DNA of 64,000 nucleotides from Candidatus Melainabacteria bacterium (GTDB lineage Bacteria; Cyanobacteriota; Vampirovibrionia; Obscuribacterales; Obscuribacteraceae), in the NCBI GenBank assembly GCA_003963305.1, contig RXJR01000026.1:1-64000 (forward strand), given 5' to 3'. Shown one piece after another: positions 36,314 to 63,596 of the stretch. The notes below the pieces were generated by a model that saw only the letters and a program-made list of their open reading frames with translations, had not been told where the DNA came from and did no database searches. Made by a program: the position numbers and the translations under genes. Every line of letters starts with the position of its first letter. Positions within the stretch are counted from its first letter, which is position 1.

Positions 36314-38149
36314 ATGAAATCGACAACTAAAATTTTGATGAAGGCTATGGTGGCAGTGAGCTTGCTGGTATCACATATGGTTACACCAGTATTTGGCACA
36401 AGCGTAAAGCATCCAAGTGGTAGCGCCCAGCAATCGAGTGGACAACCGATGGTTGTCACCCCAGATCTACCGCATCTTCCATGGAGGATGGAAAACGGCG
36501 TCAAAGTTTTCCATTTAACTGCAGAAGTTGTGGAAAGGGAATTGCTTCCGGCATCCGAGATGGGTCCAGCGAAACGAATTAAAGTCTGGGGCTATAACGG
36601 AACCGTGCCGGGCCCGACAATAGAAATCAATGAAGGCGACCATGTGCGCATCATTTTTCATAACAACCTACCGGAAGATACGACAATTCACTGGCACGGA
36701 TTTGAAGTTCCGATTGCCATGGATGGAATGCCCTTTATCAGCCAGCCTCCCGTAAAGCCTGGTAGAAGCTTCGTTTACGATTTCACGCTCCATCAAAATG
36801 GCACTTACTTTTATCACTCGCATGGCGCTATGCAAGAAATGATGGGCATGATCGGCTTATTCATCATTCATCCCAAGAAAGTCTATGCTCCTCCAGTGAC
36901 AAGGGATTTCGGCATTATCGTTCAAGAGTTTGCAGTGTTACCGAACAACGAAATTGCTAATTCCATGGCTATGGAATTTAACTGGCTGACTATTAACGGA
37001 AAAGCCGCTCCTGCCACAACACCTCTAATTTGCAAACTTGGCGATCGAGTGCGAATTAGAATAGTCAATCTCGGCATGGATCACCATCCCATCCATTTGC
37101 ACGGCAATCAATTTTTCGTCACTGGAACTGAAGGTGGTCGCATTCCTAGTTCCATTTGGTACCCTGGCAATACAGTACTCGTTGGGGTCGCCCAGGCTCG
37201 TGATATCGAGTTTGATGCAAAATACGTCGGTGATTTCATGCTTCATTGCCACTTACCACATCACATGATGAACAACATGGTATCGAGCGTGGGACCGTTG
37301 TCCCATGTCGGTCAGGGCATGCATACTGGCATGGGAATGCAAGAAGGCATGGGCATTGTTCGTGAGGGCAATGCCACCGGTGAAAATATCGGTCCAGGAT
37401 TAGGACGCGGTTTGGGGATAACCGCTGATAGAGAGCAAAATACCTCACATGTAATCGGTCATACACCAGAAAAAGTCACACCAAATGCCGAACAATCATT
37501 ATCCAGTTCGCCCTCTTTAGGCAGCGATGCAAACACGAGAACAGCCGTTGGTTACCCGCAAGATGCAACGATGATGATGCCGATGGACGCGGCTGTAGCA
37601 AAGCCTGAAAATAACGGCCTGGCGCCAGGGTGGTCGGCTGCTCTGCAAGGTATGATGTCTCTTGTACGCGTTTTACCTGCCGACAAGTACGACAAACTCA
37701 TGGCTGACATCAAAGCCGGACGCATCGACCCTGCTCAGATGAAGGGCATGCAAATGGATAACATGCCTGGCATGAACATGAATCAGGGCGACATGAAAAA
37801 CATGCCCGGCATGGATATGAAACACGACACCATGAAAAACATGCCCGGCATGAACATGAAGCACGACAACATGAAAAACATGCCCGGCATGGACATGAAG
37901 CACGACAACATGAAAAACATGCCCGGCATGGACATGAAGCACGACAACATGAAGAACATGCCCGGCATGGACATGGACATGAAGCACGACAACATGAAGA
38001 ACATGCCCGGTATGGACATGAGTGACGAAGGAAGCAAAAAAACAAAGATGCAAAAAACAACGCCCGTGAAAACCAAGCCTCCAGTGAAGAAAAAAGCCGC
38101 ACCATCAATAGAAGAACAAATGAAGCTGAACCCCAATATGAAAATGTAG
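36314..38149 (+). CDS. multicopper oxidase with Met-rich repeat tail
   Basis: This periplasmic copper oxidase (CopA/CueO-like) would oxidise Cu(I) and detoxify it. After a signal peptide, the four copper motifs are all present: H126-W-H128, H168-S-H170, H258-P-I-H261-L-H263 and H311-C312-H313 (HCHLPHHM), the full T1/T2/T3 set in a compact two- to three-domain core of about 340 residues. The C-terminal 270 residues are extra: a low-complexity linker, then seven units of about 13 residues (MKNMPGMDMKHDN) at DNA 37755-38030, then a Lys-rich tail. The Met/His repeats likely bind Cu(I). Total length 611. Confidence 0.92.
   Translation: MKSTTKILMKAMVAVSLLVSHMVTPVFGTSVKHPSGSAQQSSGQPMVVTPDLPHLPWRMENGVKVFHLTAEVVERELLPASEMGPAKRIKVWGYNGTVPGPTIEINEGDHVRIIFHNNLPEDTTIHWHGFEVPIAMDGMPFISQPPVKPGRSFVYDFTLHQNGTYFYHSHGAMQEMMGMIGLFIIHPKKVYAPPVTRDFGIIVQEFAVLPNNEIANSMAMEFNWLTINGKAAPATTPLICKLGDRVRIRIVNLGMDHHPIHLHGNQFFVTGTEGGRIPSSIWYPGNTVLVGVAQARDIEFDAKYVGDFMLHCHLPHHMMNNMVSSVGPLSHVGQGMHTGMGMQEGMGIVREGNATGENIGPGLGRGLGITADREQNTSHVIGHTPEKVTPNAEQSLSSSPSLGSDANTRTAVGYPQDATMMMPMDAAVAKPENNGLAPGWSAALQGMMSLVRVLPADKYDKLMADIKAGRIDPAQMKGMQMDNMPGMNMNQGDMKNMPGMDMKHDTMKNMPGMNMKHDNMKNMPGMDMKHDNMKNMPGMDMKHDNMKNMPGMDMDMKHDNMKNMPGMDMSDEGSKKTKMQKTTPVKTKPPVKKKAAPSIEEQMKLNPNMKM
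37755..38035 (+). repeat. 39-bp tandem repeats encoding Met-rich tail
   Basis: Seven tandem copies of a 39-bp unit (one lengthened by 6 bp) encode the MKNMPGMDMKHDN-type peptide of the multicopper oxidase. Several units are nearly identical in DNA, so copy number can change by slippage without breaking the frame. Confidence 0.85.
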
Positions 38150-38171
38150 ATAACTAGAAGGAAACGACGCC

Positions 38172-39461
38172 TTGGATTCAGATTTAAATGTCGACTTGAT
38201 CGTCCGGCTAATCACAAGCTACAAAGCCGATCCTGAATCGGTCTACAACACCTGGTTTTCAGGAAGCGACGAGCGACTGAAAGCCTTTCGCTCGATACGT
38301 TTAGGTGTAAAAAAGACCTACACCGCAATTGCCGCTGGCACATTCGGAAATGACTTTCGCGGTTCACCGCTGGAAGTGGTGATGACCGCAATTACAGAGC
38401 AAAAGCAAGTGTTTGCGGGCGCCGCGCATGCTTTCTACTGGAAGCCCAAATTGCGAATTCCGGACATTTACGAGAACGAAGACAACAAGCGAAAGTTTGG
38501 AAACTTCTTGGAGCTCTGCTATTCCAATTCAAGAGAGGATCAGATTCTGGAGCAACTTTCCAGGTTGGCGTCTCACGAGATCAAGGGACTCGGTCCAGCA
38601 GTGTCAAACATTGTTTATTTTCTGCATCCGACCATAGTTTTGCCGTTTAACACAGCCATGGTCAACGGATTCAATGTGCTGACTGGGGAGAAAATCAAGC
38701 TTGGTTCGTGGAAAAGTTATCTAGAAATGCGCGAGATTTGCGCGGAGCTGAACAGCAATCCGCAGTTGAAAAGCCTGTTATCAAAAGATTTTGGAGCGCT
38801 GGCAGGATTGCTTTTTGAAATTGGCAACGGTCGCATTGTCTTTGGTGGCAACTACGAATCTGTTTTGTCCCAGGTGAATGAGCGCGCGAAAAACATAGTC
38901 AAGACCAGACATAACGAGGTTTTATCCGAGCAGCTTGAAGAGTCAGAACACACTCAAACACAGCATTTGCTTATTAAAATTGGGCGGGCGTTGAAATTGA
39001 ATGTGCATGTTGCCAAAAACGACAGACATAAATCCTGCAACGGCGAGGCATTTGCCCAACTTACTCTGTCCGAGTTACCACTAAGAGAACGAATGCATCA
39101 GGATGTTTACGACACGATCGGCTTAATCGATGTGTTGTGGCTAAACCACGAGGGTCGCATCGTAAGCGCCTTTGAAGTGGAAAAGAGCACTTCCATCTAT
39201 TCTGGAATTTTGCGCATGGAAGACTTGATGCGTACGCTTCCCGATCACAATTGCAACTTCTTTCTTGTGGCTCCAGACAGAAGAGAAAACGAGGTGATTG
39301 CACAGTTCCAGAGACCAGCTTTTAAACAATCGTTGTCTGAAATGTCGCTGAGCTACATACCTTTTACTGAGCTTAAAACTCACTGTGAGGGATTGTGCAA
39401 ATTTGGTGATAACCACAAGATAATGCACAAGATCGCTAGGCACTGCACCTGTCCGAACTGA
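38172..39461 (+). CDS. PD-(D/E)XK-like nuclease-domain protein
   Basis: This 429-residue protein uses a TTG start at 38172 with AAGGA upstream. The N-terminal 220 residues are helical (DUF-like, no motif recognised). The C-terminal half holds IDVLWLNHEGRIVSAFEVEK (about 315-334), where Asp, then Glu-x-Glu-Lys fit the PD-(D/E)XK fold, followed by STSIYSGILRMEDLM. That combination is seen in uncharacterised restriction-endonuclease-like proteins. It sits 22 bases after the copper oxidase and 12 bases before a methyltransferase gene. A DNA-cleaving or defence role is plausible; its partner is not clear. Confidence 0.65.
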   Translation: MDSDLNVDLIVRLITSYKADPESVYNTWFSGSDERLKAFRSIRLGVKKTYTAIAAGTFGNDFRGSPLEVVMTAITEQKQVFAGAAHAFYWKPKLRIPDIYENEDNKRKFGNFLELCYSNSREDQILEQLSRLASHEIKGLGPAVSNIVYFLHPTIVLPFNTAMVNGFNVLTGEKIKLGSWKSYLEMREICAELNSNPQLKSLLSKDFGALAGLLFEIGNGRIVFGGNYESVLSQVNERAKNIVKTRHNEVLSEQLEESEHTQTQHLLIKIGRALKLNVHVAKNDRHKSCNGEAFAQLTLSELPLRERMHQDVYDTIGLIDVLWLNHEGRIVSAFEVEKSTSIYSGILRMEDLMRTLPDHNCNFFLVAPDRRENEVIAQFQRPAFKQSLSEMSLSYIPFTELKTHCEGLCKFGDNHKIMHKIARHCTCPN

Positions 39462-39473
39462 TTGAGGTTAAGC

Positions 39474-40199
39474 ATGCAGCATAATCTACCACTCGTTCAT
39501 GCAGAAGGCATAAGACTTGCTCGCACCGGTTGTGATGGCATTTTTCACGTCCGTGTGATTGATAAGGGAGCGAAAAACCGGCTTTCTTGGGACCGCTTTG
39601 TACGATTGCAGGCAGCAGCGGAACAAATAAAAACAAACTTGACGGCAGCATGCTCCGTTCTCGACGTTGGTGGCTATGAGGGCGCACTTGCGTTCTTTCT
39701 TGTCGAGAGTGGTCATTCCGTCGATGTGCTCGATCCCGAAACAACCGGGGGGACGGCAACTTGCATAAACGCTGCTGATTTCAGTTACGAGGTCGTCACG
39801 GCTGTCGATGTTCTGGAGCATATTAGTCCCGAGCAACGTCAGACTGCCATCTTTGAATGCGCTCGAGTCGCATCCAAGTTATTGGTGCTCAACTATCCTT
39901 GCCGGGAGAGCGCTCCGGCTCAGGAATTGATGCTTAAACTAACCAACAATGCTTTTGTAAGACAGCATGTTGAGTGGGAATTGCCAGATAGCAACTGGGT
40001 GGTTGGCGAGCTAGCGGAAGCGGGTTTTGACTGTCAAATTATCCCGCATACAAATCTGGGCATTTGGCTCGGTCAGTATCTTGTGCAAAATTTACTGCCC
40101 GAAGTGGCGCCAGCACTCAATGCTGCTTTGATTGCACGTCACTCGGCAGAGCCATTCAGCAGTCCGCTCTATCACCTAGTCGTCGCAATACGGGATTGA
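39474..40199 (+). CDS. class I SAM-dependent methyltransferase
   Basis: The ATG at 39474 follows GAGGTTAAG; an in-frame TTG at 39462 touches the previous stop. The 241-residue protein has SAM-binding motif I VLDVGGYEGALAFFL (about 61-75), an acidic end of strand 2 (VDVLDPE) and motif VVTAVDVLEHI (about 104-114), the Methyltransf_11-type core. No NPPY/DPPY motif of N-methylating DNA methylases is present, so it more likely acts on a small molecule, lipid or protein. It is probably co-transcribed with the nuclease-like gene. Confidence 0.78.
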   Translation: MQHNLPLVHAEGIRLARTGCDGIFHVRVIDKGAKNRLSWDRFVRLQAAAEQIKTNLTAACSVLDVGGYEGALAFFLVESGHSVDVLDPETTGGTATCINAADFSYEVVTAVDVLEHISPEQRQTAIFECARVASKLLVLNYPCRESAPAQELMLKLTNNAFVRQHVEWELPDSNWVVGELAEAGFDCQIIPHTNLGIWLGQYLVQNLLPEVAPALNAALIARHSAEPFSSPLYHLVVAIRD

Positions 40200-40245: not shown

Positions 40246-40779
40246 TTAGCCGGAAGTCGGCGTTCTTACTTCGCATGAACTACCAGGGACAACACAACAT
40301 TGTTCAGAGTTATTTCGGTAATTCCACCAAACCGCAGCGCTTACCGCAAGGGTGGCAATGCCTGCACTGATCAGCTTTGCCATAGGGAGCACATTGGCAC
40401 CAAAGAGCGTCAACCAGATACCCAACATCGGCGAGCCGCAGCAACCCAAGAGAAAGCACCCGCCGCCGCAAAATAATGCTGTTAAACCGGCACTGCCAGC
40501 CGCCATGTTTCGAGCCGCAGTTGACCGGATGTCAATGTACCGCCTGAGCGAATCGGCAGCAAAAGCAAATCCTAGCGCGCATGAGTAGCCTAGTAAATAG
40601 TTCTGCGTTTGGATATAGCGATCCAACATTGAAGGCAAATTACAGCCGTCCTCGCAAACGTCCTGCGTCAGCAGCTCTGGGTACGCACTGAACCACAAGT
40701 AGTGAAGCCCGTAAGCAAGGCAAAACACTCCTACAGGCAAAAGCCACTTACCTAGCGACTTGATCGTAGTGTTCTTCAC
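40246..40779 (-). CDS. Cys-rich four-TM membrane protein
   Basis: This 177-residue inner-membrane protein has hydrophobic segments near 12-30, 62-78, 95-113 and 125-150. Cys clusters lie in the membrane (LFCGGGCFLLGCCGSP) and at the C-terminus (EQCCVVPGSSCE), with another pair outside (VCEDGCN). Cys pairs inside membrane helices suggest transport of a soft metal or thiol-disulfide transfer. The family is not recognised. It lies 37 bases downstream of the MtrA-DUF4346 gene in the same direction, so it likely shares its ArsR control. Confidence 0.6.
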   Translation of the reverse strand: MKNTTIKSLGKWLLPVGVFCLAYGLHYLWFSAYPELLTQDVCEDGCNLPSMLDRYIQTQNYLLGYSCALGFAFAADSLRRYIDIRSTAARNMAAGSAGLTALFCGGGCFLLGCCGSPMLGIWLTLFGANVLPMAKLISAGIATLAVSAAVWWNYRNNSEQCCVVPGSSCEVRTPTSG

Positions 40780-40815
40780 AGATTGCCTCCAGTCTTATGA
40801 GCAGAACACGCAGAA

Positions 40816-41934
40816 TCACAGCCACAGCCGTCGCTGCGGTTGTTGAACCGGATATGGAACGCGATCTTGTACGTATGCTTCACCAGTTACTAACGAATTG
40901 TAAGCGCGATCGAGCTCTCGACCGAGATAGGCAGCGTGATCTAGTCGGCTAACGAAATTTTTTTCAATGGACTGCATATAAATTGCTGTTGGCGTTTCGC
41001 CTTCGATAATGCAGTCTAGAACACCAGTCGGTGTATAGTGTTCGACAAGGAGCAACTTTCTTTTACTATCAGGATAGATAACAAAAAAACCAGCCGCATC
41101 TGTCACGAAGCGCTCGGTCTCGGGCGCTCGCACCACTTCTACTTTTGTAGTCTTGATTTGTTTTTCAAATGGTCCGGGATTGCGCGCGGCGCAAGCCTTG
41201 ACCTGCTCAGCTATAGCGGCAACGTCAGTGGTTCCAATCAAAGATATCAGCTCAACTTGCTCAAGGAAAAATTGCACCTGTTCTCGGCTGACGTTTTTGA
41301 GATAAGGCCGTTTGCCCTTTGCCTCGCGAATCCTCATACCGTCATCAACGCCGTGCTTAAACAGGCTTTCCATAGATTGCCCTGGCAGATGACCGACTGC
41401 TTGTTGAGTGTCATCACCACAAACAAGCAGAAAACGAATGTTGGGGTTACCAAGAGCGTTTTGAATAACGCGCTCAATGCCAAGGTTTTCCGTATGCATG
41501 GGTCCGACTACTGCCATGCCTTCTGGATTAGCTGCTCGCAATTTTTCGGCTAGATCTTCACTGTTGAGCGTAACCACGGCAACCGGCGCCGTATAACGCG
41601 ATACCTGATATTCACCAGGCAGAGGCGGCCAGCCGGCCCGCTCTTCGGGCATCTCTGTTGGACACAAATCAAGACTTTCGCTTTGTTCTGGATAGGCCTC
41701 GGCAAAAGCGTTGGCGGCAATTGCGGGATAGCAAATGGCGCAGCCAAGACAATCATACTTTTTCGCTGTAAAGTTATCGCGCGCGCGTCCTAACAAGTCG
41801 GATAGCACATCTCTACCGGGCGCGGTTAGTGCTAGCGCTTCTGTCGTCTGCTGAAAGCAACCGCAGCTATGGCACTTAGCCAAAGAGGCCGCTGTTTCAA
41901 TCTGCTCGTGTATGACATCCAGGGGGGATTGCAT
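40816..41934 (-). CDS. MtrA/DUF4346 fusion protein
   Basis: From the ATG at 41934 (AGGA upstream) this is 372 residues. An N-terminal Cys region (KCHSCGC, YDCLGCAICYP) is followed by an MtrA-like domain (SRYTAPVAVVTLNS ... EGMAVVGPMHTENLGIERVIQNALGNPNIRFLLVCGDD, about 110-200) known from the corrinoid-binding subunit A of methanogen methyltransferase. A C-terminal DUF4346 domain follows (GFFVIYPDSKRKLLLVEHY ... LDHAAYLGREL ... YVQDR). The Cys region may hold a metal or Fe-S centre. It is divergent from an ArsR repressor. Bacterial function unknown; a link to metal or methylated metalloid handling is an inference. Confidence 0.82.
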   Translation of the reverse strand: MQSPLDVIHEQIETAASLAKCHSCGCFQQTTEALALTAPGRDVLSDLLGRARDNFTAKKYDCLGCAICYPAIAANAFAEAYPEQSESLDLCPTEMPEERAGWPPLPGEYQVSRYTAPVAVVTLNSEDLAEKLRAANPEGMAVVGPMHTENLGIERVIQNALGNPNIRFLLVCGDDTQQAVGHLPGQSMESLFKHGVDDGMRIREAKGKRPYLKNVSREQVQFFLEQVELISLIGTTDVAAIAEQVKACAARNPGPFEKQIKTTKVEVVRAPETERFVTDAAGFFVIYPDSKRKLLLVEHYTPTGVLDCIIEGETPTAIYMQSIEKNFVSRLDHAAYLGRELDRAYNSLVTGEAYVQDRVPYPVQQPQRRLWL

Positions 41935-41963
41935 TAGATTTTCCTGTAGCAAACATCATAGCC

Positions 41964-41995
41964 ATTATACACTAATCAATTGAATAGTATATAAT
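41964..41995. promoter_or_regulatory. ArsR operator palindrome between divergent genes
   Basis: The two 16-base halves (41964-41979 and 41980-41995) are inverted copies with 14 of 16 positions matching (ATTATACACTAATCAA against the reverse of TTGAATAGTATATAAT). ATA...TAT-type palindromes of this size are typical ArsR/SmtB operators. It sits midway between the MtrA-like gene and the ArsR gene and includes likely -10 sequences for both. The left half recurs at 22822-22838. Confidence 0.75.
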
Positions 41996-42024
41996 GCCAA
42001 CAGATACCCCTTCGAGGTTCAAAG

Positions 42025-42399
42025 ATGGACGAACCAGACAAGTGTTGCAGCCCCAAACCGCTCTTAGAGGACCGTCCAGTCTTTTCCCTTAATCAGGCTG
42101 CTGAACTGGCAGAGCTGTTCAAGCTGCTGGCGGATGCGACACGGGTCCGGCTGCTGCAACTGCTGTTAAAACACGGCGAGATGCGAGTGTCTGAGATTTC
42201 AGGCGCGCTGGAGATGACACCGCAAGCTGTTTCAAACCAACTTCAAAAACTAGCGTATAACAATGTCGTTGCAGCCAGAAGAGCAGGCGTGAATATTCAC
42301 TACCGCGTCGTTGATCCGTGTGTTCGTGAGCTGCTTCAACAGGGTATGTGCCTTCTTGAAGATGCGCGCCAGAGCAGGAATCACGCTGATGTTGTCTGA
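42025..42399 (+). CDS. ArsR/SmtB-family metal-responsive repressor
   Basis: The 124-residue winged-helix protein has an N-terminal CC pair (DKCCSP), the core LFKLLADATRVRLLQLLL, DNA-recognition helix EMTPQAVSNQLQKL and wing RRAGVNIHYRV, and a final helix DPCVRELLQQGMCLLE with two Cys. It closely resembles the regulator at 22444-22809. Metal choice cannot be told. It is followed two bases later by an emfourin-like gene and is divergent from the MtrA-DUF4346 gene. Confidence 0.88.
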   Translation: MDEPDKCCSPKPLLEDRPVFSLNQAAELAELFKLLADATRVRLLQLLLKHGEMRVSEISGALEMTPQAVSNQLQKLAYNNVVAARRAGVNIHYRVVDPCVRELLQQGMCLLEDARQSRNHADVV

Positions 42400-42400
42400 T

Positions 42401-42772
42401 ATGAAAGTAAGTTTTCGTAAAAAGGGCGGCTTGCTAAATGCGCAGCTTGACTGTGAAATCGATTGCAACAATGTTCAGCAGCTCACTCAAGAGGAATCCC
42501 GCGAGCTAGTGGCTTTGCTGAATAAATACCGCCCGGCGTGCGCTTGCACAGATGAAAGCATTAGTGGACAGAGAAATGAATTCAGCTATCAGATCAGTAT
42601 CGATGATGGCGAGAACAGGCTGAAACTGGCATTCTGTACGGGAATGTATCTTGAAGATATCGAGCTGTGGCGCAGCGTTGAGCTGATCGAAACCCTTTGT
42701 TATCGTGCGTGTGGTGCGGAGCAAAGACCGATCTCTATCGGATGTTGCCCTAGATCGAACGTCGAGGGATAA
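42401..42772 (+). CDS. emfourin-like small protein
   Basis: From the ATG at 42401 the 123-residue protein starts MKVSFRKKGGLLNAQLDCEI, continues LTQEESRELVALLNKY and a YQISID strand, and has a helix near 85-105. This resembles emfourin, the protealysin inhibitor family, but extra Cys residues (ACACTDES, TLCYRACG, GCCPRS) are unusual for it and could bind metal. It overlaps no gene and follows the ArsR stop by one base, so it is co-expressed with the regulator. The match is pattern-based. Confidence 0.5.
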   Translation: MKVSFRKKGGLLNAQLDCEIDCNNVQQLTQEESRELVALLNKYRPACACTDESISGQRNEFSYQISIDDGENRLKLAFCTGMYLEDIELWRSVELIETLCYRACGAEQRPISIGCCPRSNVEG

Positions 42773-43042: not shown

Positions 43043-44125
43043 CTAGCCCAGCGTCATCCTTTTCTCATCGAATTCTTTTTTGTCCTTTAAAACGTGATAT
43101 GCGATCTCTGCAATCGTTCGGGCGATCGCAACTATTGCGGTTTTTTTGCCTCTGCGCTTAAGTATTGTGTTGTAGCGACTCAGAAACGGCTTCGAAGTTC
43201 TTACAGCCATCCATGCGTCTTGTAGGAGTATCCATCGCAAAATTCTTGGACCTCTTTTTGTAATTGCTCCCATTCTCATCACACTGAACTCGCATAGAGG
43301 CGAGGCACCAAGCCGATATAACCAGCAACATGCCGAGCGTTCTTAAACCTCGTGATGTCACCCAATTCAGCAGCTATCATTAATGCCGAGATATCTCCAA
43401 CACCTGGAATCGTTTTCAGCAACTGCACTTCGGGAGAGTCCTTTGCTAGTTGCATTAAGATTCGATCCCGATTTACCATCTTTTCTTCAAAATAATCGAT
43501 CACCTCGAGGCACTCCCCAAGCTGCTGTGACGCTCGGGAGTGAGACTGCTTTCTTGTTGTAGACAATTGCGCCCAAGCGCGGACCCCAATCGAGCTTCTT
43601 TGTTTCCTTGTCCAGAACCGCATGTGCGATGTTCTTGTATTGTGTTCGTGAACGCATCAGTCTTGTCCGCCATCGCAAATTCTCTCTCAATATGCGCTCA
43701 TTTCTGCTCGGTTGATAGCAGACCGGCAGGTAGTTTCGGATGACTAACTCCATCAGAATTTTGCTGTCGATTTTGTCATTCTTTTTGACACTATCGGCTA
43801 TTAATCTCACAGCATAGGTGTTTGCGACTTTAACTTTCGAACCGCATTGTTTGACTGTTTCAACGAACCATTCGTTGCCGCGGCAATTCTCAATCGCACA
43901 AATTACTGGGTCCAATCGCAGAAAAAACTTTCGAACTTCGTGCTCGTCATTCGACAGTTTGTGCTGGCTCAGCACCTCTCCCTTCTCGTTTCCCACAGTA
44001 ATTACAGAGAAACGTTTGTGGAAATCGATTCCTACAAACGTAGCTTTACCTTCCATGGGCGTGATAGATTTCGGCATAGGCATGTTCTCCAAAGCAGTGT
44101 TGGGTTTGTTTCGCAAAACTTCCAT
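43043..44125 (-). pseudogene. IS110-family transposase, two frameshifts
   Basis: Three consecutive minus-strand frames together make one IS110-type DEDD transposase. Frame 1 (44125 to about 43500) has GIDFHKRFSVITV, CAIENCRGNEWFVE and NDKIDSKILMEL with the catalytic acidic residues. Frame 2 (to 43279) has LLKTIPGVGDISALMIAAELGD, the transposase_20 helix-hairpin-helix. Frame 3 (43282-43043) has the C-terminal RMGAITKRGPRILRW. Shifts lie near 43550-43600 and 43280. The gene is inactive as read. Terminal ends were not found; 42773-43042 holds nothing else. Confidence 0.85.
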
Positions 44126-57600: not shown

Positions 57601-58218
57601 ATGGCTGAACAAGAACAAAACGACAGCAGGCTGAGCCCCGAAGACCTTTACCAGAGGCTGATCTACGAACTATACGAGAACGGTCCATTCCGGCTGGTGG
57701 ACGAGAAAGGACACCCTGATTTGATCAACGACAAGACTCGCCTGTGTTGCTTGCGGGAGAGATTCTTGGACGCCATCACTGTGCTGCAGAAACACGACTT
57801 GGTGCGAGAGTTTAGAAACGAGCAAGAAAACCGCCTTTACACCCTGACCTACAAGGGCTATTTGACGGCACTTCTTGCACGCTGCAAATTAAACCGAGAC
57901 AGCCGATGTAAGTGCAACAAGTGCGTCAACGAATTGGTGCAAGCCTTCGAGCATCTCTTGAAAGAGATGAAGCGCGGCGGTCCCATGGAATTGGTGATAA
58001 GCAATCATCGCAATCACCCGCACTTTGTGGCAAGCGAATCCCAATTGTGTTGTTCACAAGCGCCATTCCTTGACGCAATGTGTGAGCTGGAGCATTACGG
58101 ACTGGTGAGCAGGTCGGCAAACTTCTTCTACCAACTTACTTCAAAAGGCTTGATATCAGCTCAGATTTCGCAACTACCCAACAGCAAAGAACGAAGTGAG
58201 CGGGCAAGCGCAAACTAA
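57601..58218 (+). CDS. duplicated winged-helix-like Cys-rich protein, paralog A
   Basis: This 205-residue protein starts behind CGGAGG. It has two halves of the same type. Half 1 (about 12-85): LYQRLIYELYENGP...RLCCLRERFLDAITVLQKHDLV...YTLTYKGYLTALL. Half 2 (about 115-190): AFEHLLKEMKRGGP...QLCCSQAPFLDAMCELEHYGLV...YQLTSKGLISAQI. Each looks like a winged helix with a buried LCC pair; the linker has CKCNKC. Eight or so Cys suggest metal binding. Its paralog lies at 62994-63596. The family is not known to me. The MerR regulator lies 124 bases upstream, in the same direction. Confidence 0.7.
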   Translation: MAEQEQNDSRLSPEDLYQRLIYELYENGPFRLVDEKGHPDLINDKTRLCCLRERFLDAITVLQKHDLVREFRNEQENRLYTLTYKGYLTALLARCKLNRDSRCKCNKCVNELVQAFEHLLKEMKRGGPMELVISNHRNHPHFVASESQLCCSQAPFLDAMCELEHYGLVSRSANFFYQLTSKGLISAQISQLPNSKERSERASAN

Positions 58219-62276: not shown

Positions 62277-62993
62277 CACACGTTCGCAAGAATTCTGCCT
62301 GCGAAATCTGTTCTTGCGTGAGTTTTGAGCCCATAAGAACGGGAACCTGCTGTGCAAGTTCAATCACTCTAGCGGATTATACAGATGGCATGAGCCTCTC
62401 TGGTAAGAAATGAATGACGGAAAGCGTAAGATCCGTCATTCACTAGGCTTAGATGGTAGCACTACTAAACCGCCAGTGAAATTAATATATGAAAATCAGT
62501 TGCACCGCGTATGGTGGCAAGGAGCATGGTCATATGACAAAAGATCTATTGAATACATCCGACCTAGTAGTTATGAGCACGGCCAGCGTCCATCAGGTAG
62601 CTTGAGGCCGCATGATTGCTTGGTCAACTTGCTACAAAGCTCGCCTATTGAGCCCGTCAAGTCCTCCTGGATCATTGTCTTTACTCAAAACAAATCAAAC
62701 AAATGCAGACAATGGTGAAGGCAAAAGTAGAGGTAATGTTAAATAAGGAGAATCTGAGTCGTTGCGTGCTGAGTTAGTATCGACGATTGGCGAAACACAC
62801 TATTAAATTAATTGCTTGAATGCTTTTTCATATTGACAAGCATCCCGTCGTTCATTATCTTGAAAGCACCCGGGATAAAATCCAAAAACTTCATGCTCAG
62901 TTGTCTGATTTAACGAATCAAAATAACTGCTCATCTTATCTTTGGAATACGGGTTTGATAGTTTTACTACACAATAATAAAGAGCCTGATCTA

Positions 62994-63596
62994 ATGCCCG
63001 AACAAAACAAAAGCAGGCTCAGCGCCGAAGAGGCGTATGAGCGATTGATCTCAGAACTTTATGACAATGGACCAATGGAGCTTGTTGGAGATGAGCAGCA
63101 TGCAGACTTGATTAACGGCCAAGTGCGCCTTTGCTGCGTTACTGAGCCATTTTTAGCCGTGATCAGGGTAATGCAAAAACATCAGTTGGTTCGAGCCGTG
63201 AAAAAGGAGTCGCAGCGGCTCTTCGTACTTACATCGAAAGGCTATCTGACAGCGTTGGTAATGCGATATCGAGCTCGACGGGATACTAGATGTCGATGCA
63301 ACAAATGCGCAGTGGAAGTAGCGGAGGCATTTGAAAAACTCCTTCTTGAGCTTCAACAGAACGGCCCGATGGAACTTACAGCAAGCAATCATCGAGACCA
63401 TCCTCACTTTATGAGTGAAAACAGTCAATTGTGTTGCAGACAGCATCCATTTCTTGATGCGGTGAGTGACCTGGAGAAGTTCGGATTAGTAGAAACGACA
63501 CACGACTTTGTGTACAAGCTGACGGAGAAAGGTGCATTGTCAGCGCGCTTATTGCAATTGCCAGCACAGAAAGTGGGCAACCCTCTGTTCAACTGA
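62994..63596 (+). CDS. duplicated winged-helix-like Cys-rich protein, paralog B
   Basis: From the ATG at 62994 this 200-residue protein aligns with the paralog at 57601-58218 over its whole length: LISELYDNGPMELV, RLCCVTEPFLAVIRVMQKHQLV, CRCNKCAVEV, QLLLELQQNGPMEL and QLCCRQHPFLDAVSDLEKFGLV. A longer frame from 62820 would add 58 residues absent from the paralog, so it is not used. It keeps the LCC pair in both halves and the C-x-C-x2-C linker. Metal binding is inferred from the invariant Cys. It precedes a truncated gene resembling the M23 protein. Confidence 0.7.
   Translation: MPEQNKSRLSAEEAYERLISELYDNGPMELVGDEQHADLINGQVRLCCVTEPFLAVIRVMQKHQLVRAVKKESQRLFVLTSKGYLTALVMRYRARRDTRCRCNKCAVEVAEAFEKLLLELQQNGPMELTASNHRDHPHFMSENSQLCCRQHPFLDAVSDLEKFGLVETTHDFVYKLTEKGALSARLLQLPAQKVGNPLFN

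Follow-up and report, generated by a model that had tools for sequence, protein, structure and literature searches.

What a relative of a methanogen methyltransferase subunit does in a bacterium, next to a metal-responsive repressor, is the question raised by a locus of a Candidatus Melainabacteria bacterium, studied here in a window of 64,000 nucleotides (contig RXJR01000026.1, positions 1 to 64,000). The gene concerned, mtrA-DUF4346, is transcribed divergently from arsR and codes for a protein in which an N-terminal cysteine domain is followed by an MtrA and a DUF4346 domain. MtrA is a corrinoid protein that was previously known mainly from methane-making microbes. An earlier note, made from the letters of the window, had described this fusion, the divergent repressor, a Cys-rich membrane protein in line with mtrA and an emfourin-like gene after arsR, and had raised the possibility of methyl-metal(loid) chemistry. 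The neighbourhood of the homologs, described below, leads us to regard the mtrA-DUF4346 operon as very probably devoted to metal-regulated detoxification.

Association of mtrA-DUF4346 with metal-responsive genes

Loci coding for homologs were found by short peptide patterns, so that their counts are not frequencies across bacteria, and the gene calls in them are mechanical open reading frames (ORFs). The genome scan gave 80 loci; with the plasmid matches, 75 entered the neighbourhood analysis, and some counts were made on 74. An ArsR gene lies at most 1.5 kb from mtrA in 58 of the 75 loci, a count that includes a few false matches (rhodanese-like ORFs in loci L083 and L111), and the density of ArsR genes is tenfold higher within this distance (0.317 per kb) than farther out (0.033 per kb). 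In most cases the ArsR gene is the next one upstream; of those upstream of mtrA, 55 are on the same strand and 6 on the opposite one, with an overlap of 4 nucleotides in twelve pairs. The carriers come from about ten phyla, on chromosomes and plasmids, and include Acidobacteriota, Pseudomonadota, Myxococcota, Thermodesulfobacteriota, Nitrospirota, Planctomycetota, Chloroflexota, Ignavibacteriota, Bacillota and others; among them are the cultured Anaeromyxobacter oryzae (chromosome), Methylomonas methanica, Dechloromonas hortensis and Paenibacillus naphthalenovorans, as well as a Paraburkholderia megaplasmid and Planococcus plasmids. ArsR was absent in the controls lacking the N-terminal Cys domain (the three short-form bacterial loci L108, L109 and L112, and five methanogen loci), which are few and of which L109 is short. 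That a stray methanogen-type gene merely came to rest in a resistance island would suit the window, which is a mobile metal-resistance element rich in such genes, but this explanation is hardly credible given that the ArsR link recurs in so many phyla, on both kinds of replicon and with such a difference in density. Because ArsR clusters near mtrA in most loci, a metal link that is not coincidental is strongly supported. In the window’s own family, only 2 of 36 genomes carry mtrA-DUF4346, as would suit an accessory system that is mobile.

The window ArsR matches the NCBIfam model HTH_metalloreg (NF033788) with 79.6 bits against a cut-off of 55, and belongs to a class (A) with the motifs CxPKP, DPCV and GxCL; its best solved relative, 6uvu_A (111.5 bits), has the same Cys pattern. 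Class B is CadC-like, with C...CF near the N-terminus and ELCVCD in the recognition region, and its closest solved relatives are Lmo1102 (9t6r) and CadC (1u2w); it is established that cysteines of this pattern bind Cd(II)/Pb(II). The 46 classified rows divide into 23 CadC-type and 23 class A regulators, and the class switches about three times on the corrinoid-protein tree. In the Paraburkholderia locus, ArsR is replaced by a MerR homolog of the CadR/PbrR type (148.5 bits). Three regulator types are thus found on the same gene and, therefore, unrelated soft-metal regulators have been attached to mtrA-DUF4346. The palindrome between the divergent genes of the window, in which 15 of 17 positions pair and which none of 3000 shuffles equalled, is a candidate ArsR operator by its operator-like form; a homologous palindrome in L039, the locus of a relative with 78% identity, pairs at 17 of 18 positions, a score reached by none of 3000 shuffles. 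When operators were sought in front of every arsR gene, clear palindromes were limited to the window, L039 and some class A loci; the CadC-type loci had no consistent palindrome there.

Other metal genes recur in the 74 loci, with RND systems in 20, P1B ATPases in 10, MerR-type regulators in 10, MerT in 4 and MerA in 3. MerC was found in 9 of the 74 by BLAST and in 12 by clustering, directly upstream of mtrA in several (the neighbouring MerC matches PF03203 with 44.8 bits, above the Pfam cut-off), and DsbD_TM proteins are encoded near mtrA in about 30. Planococcus plasmids carry arsR, a heavy-metal-associated (HMA) protein, a Zn/Cd/Pb-type ATPase and mtrA-DUF4346 in one row. The synteny survey that the earlier note had proposed as a check, with a lack of metal-gene neighbours as the refutation, thus came out in favour of the metal link. 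An emphasis on arsenic is not supported: ACR3, ArsC and ArsI were each found near no more than 2 of the 74 genes, and an arsenic-specific function was rejected on these counts. With arsenic genes this rare, and with CadC-type regulators making up half of the classified ArsR proteins, metals of the Cd/Pb/Hg class are more likely than arsenic. The multicopper oxidase, RND and ArsI genes around mtrA in the window were set aside as parts of the system, being general features of the island.

The gene downstream of mtrA varies and codes for a thioredoxin-like protein together with a DsbD/CcdA protein, for a MacB/FtsX exporter or for a membrane protein with a CCGSP motif. This last arrangement is found in 12 loci, the window and 11 others, with CCGSP lying in a hydrophobic segment in all 12, so that the Cys-rich membrane protein of the earlier note, downstream of mtrA on the same strand, is a recurrent partner. 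The window protein has no Pfam or NCBIfam family and no Pfam match to MerT or MerC; its vicinal CCxxP, in a hydrophobic segment, makes it a probable soft-metal transporter. MerT and MerC serve MerA and, by analogy, the MerC, CCGSP and DsbD-like partners suggest that the corrinoid protein may be supplied with metal or electrons through the membrane. A V4R-domain protein (L041, 2243-2782) is encoded between arsR and mtrA in several Acidobacteriota and in Methylomonas.

The predicted corrinoid site and the cysteine regions

The fusion is borne out by Pfam, with PF04208 (MtrA) at 156.6 bits (E 6.6e-46, cut-off 25) and PF14251 (DUF4346) at 70.1 bits (E 2.8e-19, cut-off 29.6), and by the N-terminal domain, in which seven cysteines are invariant in 60 aligned sequences and likewise in 48 aligned N-termini. 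In the AlphaFold2 (AF2) model of the protein (confidence, pLDDT, 84), the MtrA domain superimposes on the MtrA-cobalamin structure 5laa with a VIA-align Z of 24.4 and a root-mean-square deviation of 1.6 A over 153 residues. In MtrA, His84 is the cobalt ligand and Glu54 bonds to it (PMC4915002). His182 of the window protein aligns with this ligand and Glu149 takes the position of its hydrogen-bond partner; both residues, and C172, are invariant across the 60 aligned homologs, which also retain a GKRPxLKN meander throughout. Sequence and model both support the corrinoid-type reading of the earlier note, and this branch probably binds a corrinoid. Of 22 carrier genomes, 19, the window’s among them, code for the B12-dependent methionine synthase MetH and, therefore, use B12-type cofactors.

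The N-terminal domain is modelled with a pLDDT of 89. On its own, it gave no Foldseek match in the PDB with E of 0.001 or less, which is not proof of a new fold, and none of its 13 top chains reached a Z of 2 in VIA-align. Pfam matches of the N-termini to Med16_C (6 members), Fer4_21 (3) and the LdpA Fe-S family (1) were discarded as weak, inconsistent or unrelated. With no significant match to an Fe-S family, reading the seven-Cys domain as an Fe-S domain is only a suggestion from its cysteines.

At the other end of the protein, 52 of the 60 homologs have an in-frame tail with at least two Cys (e.g., CGCxxxC), and Planococcus homologs, encoded behind a P1B ATPase, contain an additional insert of CGC repeats. 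The window ORF ends in RRLWL, while another frame of the same DNA reads SDGCGCDSACSAHKTGGNL up to a stop at 40776, so that there is a frame break either in this copy or in its assembly. In the L039 relative, the tail is in phase. The seven cysteines, the tail and the Planococcus insert, in homologs encoded behind a P1B ATPase, would suit a protein that is mainly a metal buffer or chaperone, with Cys regions that hold soft metals and an MtrA-DUF4346 body that serves as a scaffold and transfers no methyl group. A pure thiol buffer is disfavoured because His182, Glu149 and the meander, which it would not need, are kept throughout, and we consider this explanation unlikely.

Two loci from the window organism’s class, Vampirovibrionia (L008 and L112), code for a short MtrA-DUF4346 without the Cys domain and without ArsR neighbours, possibly a housekeeping form.

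Comparison with known systems

Subunit A of the Na+-pumping methyltransferase of methanogens (MtrA, PF04208; 5laa, 5l8x) shares the fold, the His ligand, its Glu partner and the meander with the window protein, but has a C-terminal membrane part that DUF4346 replaces here, and differs in having neither the N-terminal seven-Cys domain nor the usual Cys tail; the genes studied here lie in bacterial metal operons whose carriers lack MtrH. The window protein is not a true Mtr subunit, since it remains below the cut-off of the equivalog model for subunit A (TIGR01111, 154.7 bits against 249.15) and MtrH (PF02007) is above its cut-off in none of 22 carrier genomes, an absence on which a role in an Mtr complex was rejected and which argues against the methanogen Mtr reaction. 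The same full-length architecture is described by NF002128 (PRK00964.1-6), annotated as Mtr subunit A: residues 3-369 align to positions 5-374 of 390, with 486 bits (the cut-off of 568 was not reached). The gene neighbourhood does not support this methanogenesis label. The DUF4346 region also matches the C-terminus of TIGR00284 (model positions 397-495), a family of dihydropteroate synthase-like proteins that shares this domain and whose central part, from which it takes its name, has no match in the window protein.

As MtrA is a methyl carrier, a metabolic backup under metal stress might also be envisaged, for instance by a corrinoid carrier of methyl groups that would shield methionine synthesis, or stand in for it, once thiol or zinc enzymes have been poisoned, and a stand-alone DUF4346 gene is indeed found behind metE, near a DUF1636 gene, on a Nostoc plasmid (L006, 6007-6390). 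Nevertheless, metE-like genes are not conserved neighbours and the partners are metal and thiol transport proteins, making a backup of this kind improbable.

The mer and cad operons (MerR/MerC/MerT/MerA and CadC/CadA) have in common with these loci the CadC-type ArsR, CadR/MerR, MerC, MerT and P1B ATPase, but are built around MerA or CadA, where here a corrinoid-type protein is found. To our knowledge, HgcAB is the only corrinoid system established for mercury methylation, and it is, by analogy, the closest functional relative of MtrA-DUF4346: both combine a corrinoid-type protein, a Cys-rich part (the Fe-S partner in HgcAB, a putative redox part here), C-terminal Cys (a pair on a flexible tail, as in HgcB) and ArsR-like regulators nearby. 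In HgcAB, the C-terminal Cys is needed for full activity, ArsR-like neighbours occur, and a Cys93His variant of HgcA retains partial activity (PMC7305189, PMC7438021). HgcA belongs to PF03599, has a Cys ligand and five transmembrane helices, whereas the protein studied here is one soluble chain with an MtrA fold, in which the cobalt-ligand position is the invariant His182 and not a cap-helix Cys of the HgcA type. PF03599 is not matched by the window protein, in which the Pfam scan finds only MtrA and DUF4346. Because of the different corrinoid family, the His ligand and the lack of the HgcA membrane domain, MtrA-DUF4346 is not a member of HgcA. The literature searched, mostly outside subscription journals, contained no mention of DUF4346 and nothing linking this MtrA to metal resistance.

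Proposed mechanism

These features can be arranged in a mechanism in which an ArsR repressor would sit on the palindrome until a thiophilic metal releases it, and derepression would then lead to the joint synthesis of MtrA-DUF4346 and the CC-x-x-P membrane protein (MerC or DsbD/CcdA-like proteins in relatives). Metal, or electrons, would pass through the membrane by way of the membrane partner, the seven-Cys domain and the Cys tail would bind metal and/or an Fe-S cluster that keeps cobalt reduced, and the MtrA domain, with its corrinoid in a His-on state, would pass a methyl group to a thiol-bound soft metal, as HgcAB does for mercury. The domains, the conserved corrinoid ligand and cysteines, the structure of the operon, the operator-like palindrome and the metal genes nearby were observed by computation; corrinoid binding in this branch, the content of a cluster, the identity of the metal, the methyl transfer, its donor and its direction are all things that we infer, and the methyl-metal chemistry of the earlier note keeps this standing. 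We lean towards a methyl transfer involving a metal in one direction or the other; the full proposal, a soft-metal-inducible operon whose corrinoid enzyme methylates metal in an HgcAB-like manner on an unrelated corrinoid fold, is tentative, with chances a little short of even.

Several observations weigh against this mechanism. HgcA is a Cys-on corrinoid protein of another family, MtrH is absent, no conserved gene for a methyl-donor partner was found beside mtrA, and the corrinoid reactivator RACo is encoded in only 4 of the 22 carrier genomes. A CFeSP-type Fe-S domain (PF04060) for the N-terminus was rejected, since its cysteines align but hhalign gives a probability of 0.5-1.7%. Lastly, the window copy is without an in-frame Cys tail and, because of this loss, may be decaying. 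On the question of the donor, HgcAB was found to use S-adenosylmethionine (PMC11588087), so that the reaction need not, in principle, depend on a pterin methyltransferase.

The reaction could also run in reverse, with a demethylase for methylmercury, methylarsenite or alkyl-lead that works independently of MerB and passes the methyl group first to cob(I)alamin and from there to a pterin or thiol. Such an activity would suit the position of MerC, called an organomercurial transporter in NCBIfam, immediately upstream of mtrA in several loci, the presence of DUF4346 at the C-terminus of the dihydropteroate synthase-like, presumed pterin-binding proteins, and the gene of the ArsI/CadI family in the window itself. 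It is nonetheless opposed by the lack of a conserved C1-transfer gene alongside and of MtrH, and by CadC- and CadR-type regulators that suggest inorganic cations, and we rate it as doubtful, slightly below the buffer.

Methylation or demethylation of metals by such proteins, if true, would offer a testable biological route in culturable isolates. A broader proposal, that a second and evolutionarily independent corrinoid system acts on soft metals in many bacterial phyla by methylating or demethylating them, is put forward only as a possibility, less probable than the mechanism above; its protein would have an MtrA fold, a His-on corrinoid and Cys/Fe-S and metal-delivery parts of its own, and neither hgcAB nor merB would have to be present in the phyla through which it has spread. 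A misleading annotation as a methanogenesis subunit would be corrected in bacteria, and a metal-induced corrinoid protein, the more modest interpretation, would by itself be an effector of a new kind in metal-resistance operons.

Organization of the locus and its surroundings

The features of the locus are collected in Table 1. The ATG at 41934 is a better start for mtrA than that of the listed ORF (40816-41952), as the homolog in L039 starts equivalently, and it widens the gap to arsR from 72 bp to 90 bp. The emfourin-like gene is present after arsR as described in the earlier note, starting at the ATG at 42401 and not at the listed TTG at 42311, and is possibly cotranscribed with arsR. Its label is weak because PF20242 scores under its cut-off (23.9 bits against 27), and no homolog was found in the mtrA loci or in 39 related genomes; being not conserved, it lies outside the conserved system, and an emfourin or protease-inhibitor component was discarded.

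Table 1. Features of the mtrA-DUF4346 locus in the window.
Feature	Position	Strand	Basis and remarks
MtrA-DUF4346 corrinoid-type protein	40816..41934	(-)	372 aa, ATG start 41934; PF04208, PF14251
N-terminal cysteine domain, KCxxCGC ... YDCLGCxxCxP ... C91	41641..41934	(-)	seven-Cys alignment; AF2
MtrA corrinoid-binding domain (predicted)	41146..41640	(-)	VIA-align to 5laa; His182, Glu149
DUF4346 (PterinBD-DUF4346) domain	40864..41100	(-)	PF14251
Cys-rich C-terminal tail SDGCGCDSACSAHKTGGNL, out of frame relative to the MtrA-DUF4346 ORF	40776..40835	(-)	in-frame Cys tails of homologs
Cys-rich membrane protein, CCGSP within hydrophobic segment (fam7)	40246..40779	(-)	CCGSP homologs beside mtrA
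Palindromic operator-like site CATTATACACTAATCAATTGAATAGTATATAATG	41963..41996	(.)	34 bp; base pairing compared with shuffles
ArsR/SmtB metalloregulator, class A (CCSPKP ... DPCV ... GMCL)	42025..42399	(+)	NF033788; 6uvu_A
Emfourin-like small protein	42401..42772	(+)	PF20242 below cut-off; starts one base after arsR

The locus lies in a mobile metal-resistance element (205-57476) that contains IS21 istAB genes, a type IV secretion system coupling protein, a single-stranded DNA-binding protein, a row of ArsI/CadI, ArsC and ACR3 genes, two RND efflux operons, a multicopper oxidase, a P1B ATPase and a MerR-type regulator. Two similar proteins of the window (57601-58218, without a Pfam family, and 62820-63596) have Cys motifs resembling CCLRE/CRCNKC. 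Beside the arsR/emfourin-like pair, an IS110-type transposase is split into several ORFs (43043-44125). On the other side (38172-40199), a protein whose C-terminal part resembles a type II restriction enzyme (PADLOC PDLC03534, E 1.7e-9) is encoded directly before a methyltransferase-like gene; the two may form a small restriction-modification pair within the metal island. In the multicopper oxidase, the C-terminal half (37600-38150) contains many near-identical Met/His repeats, NMPGMDMKHDNMK, and is probably a copper-binding tail.

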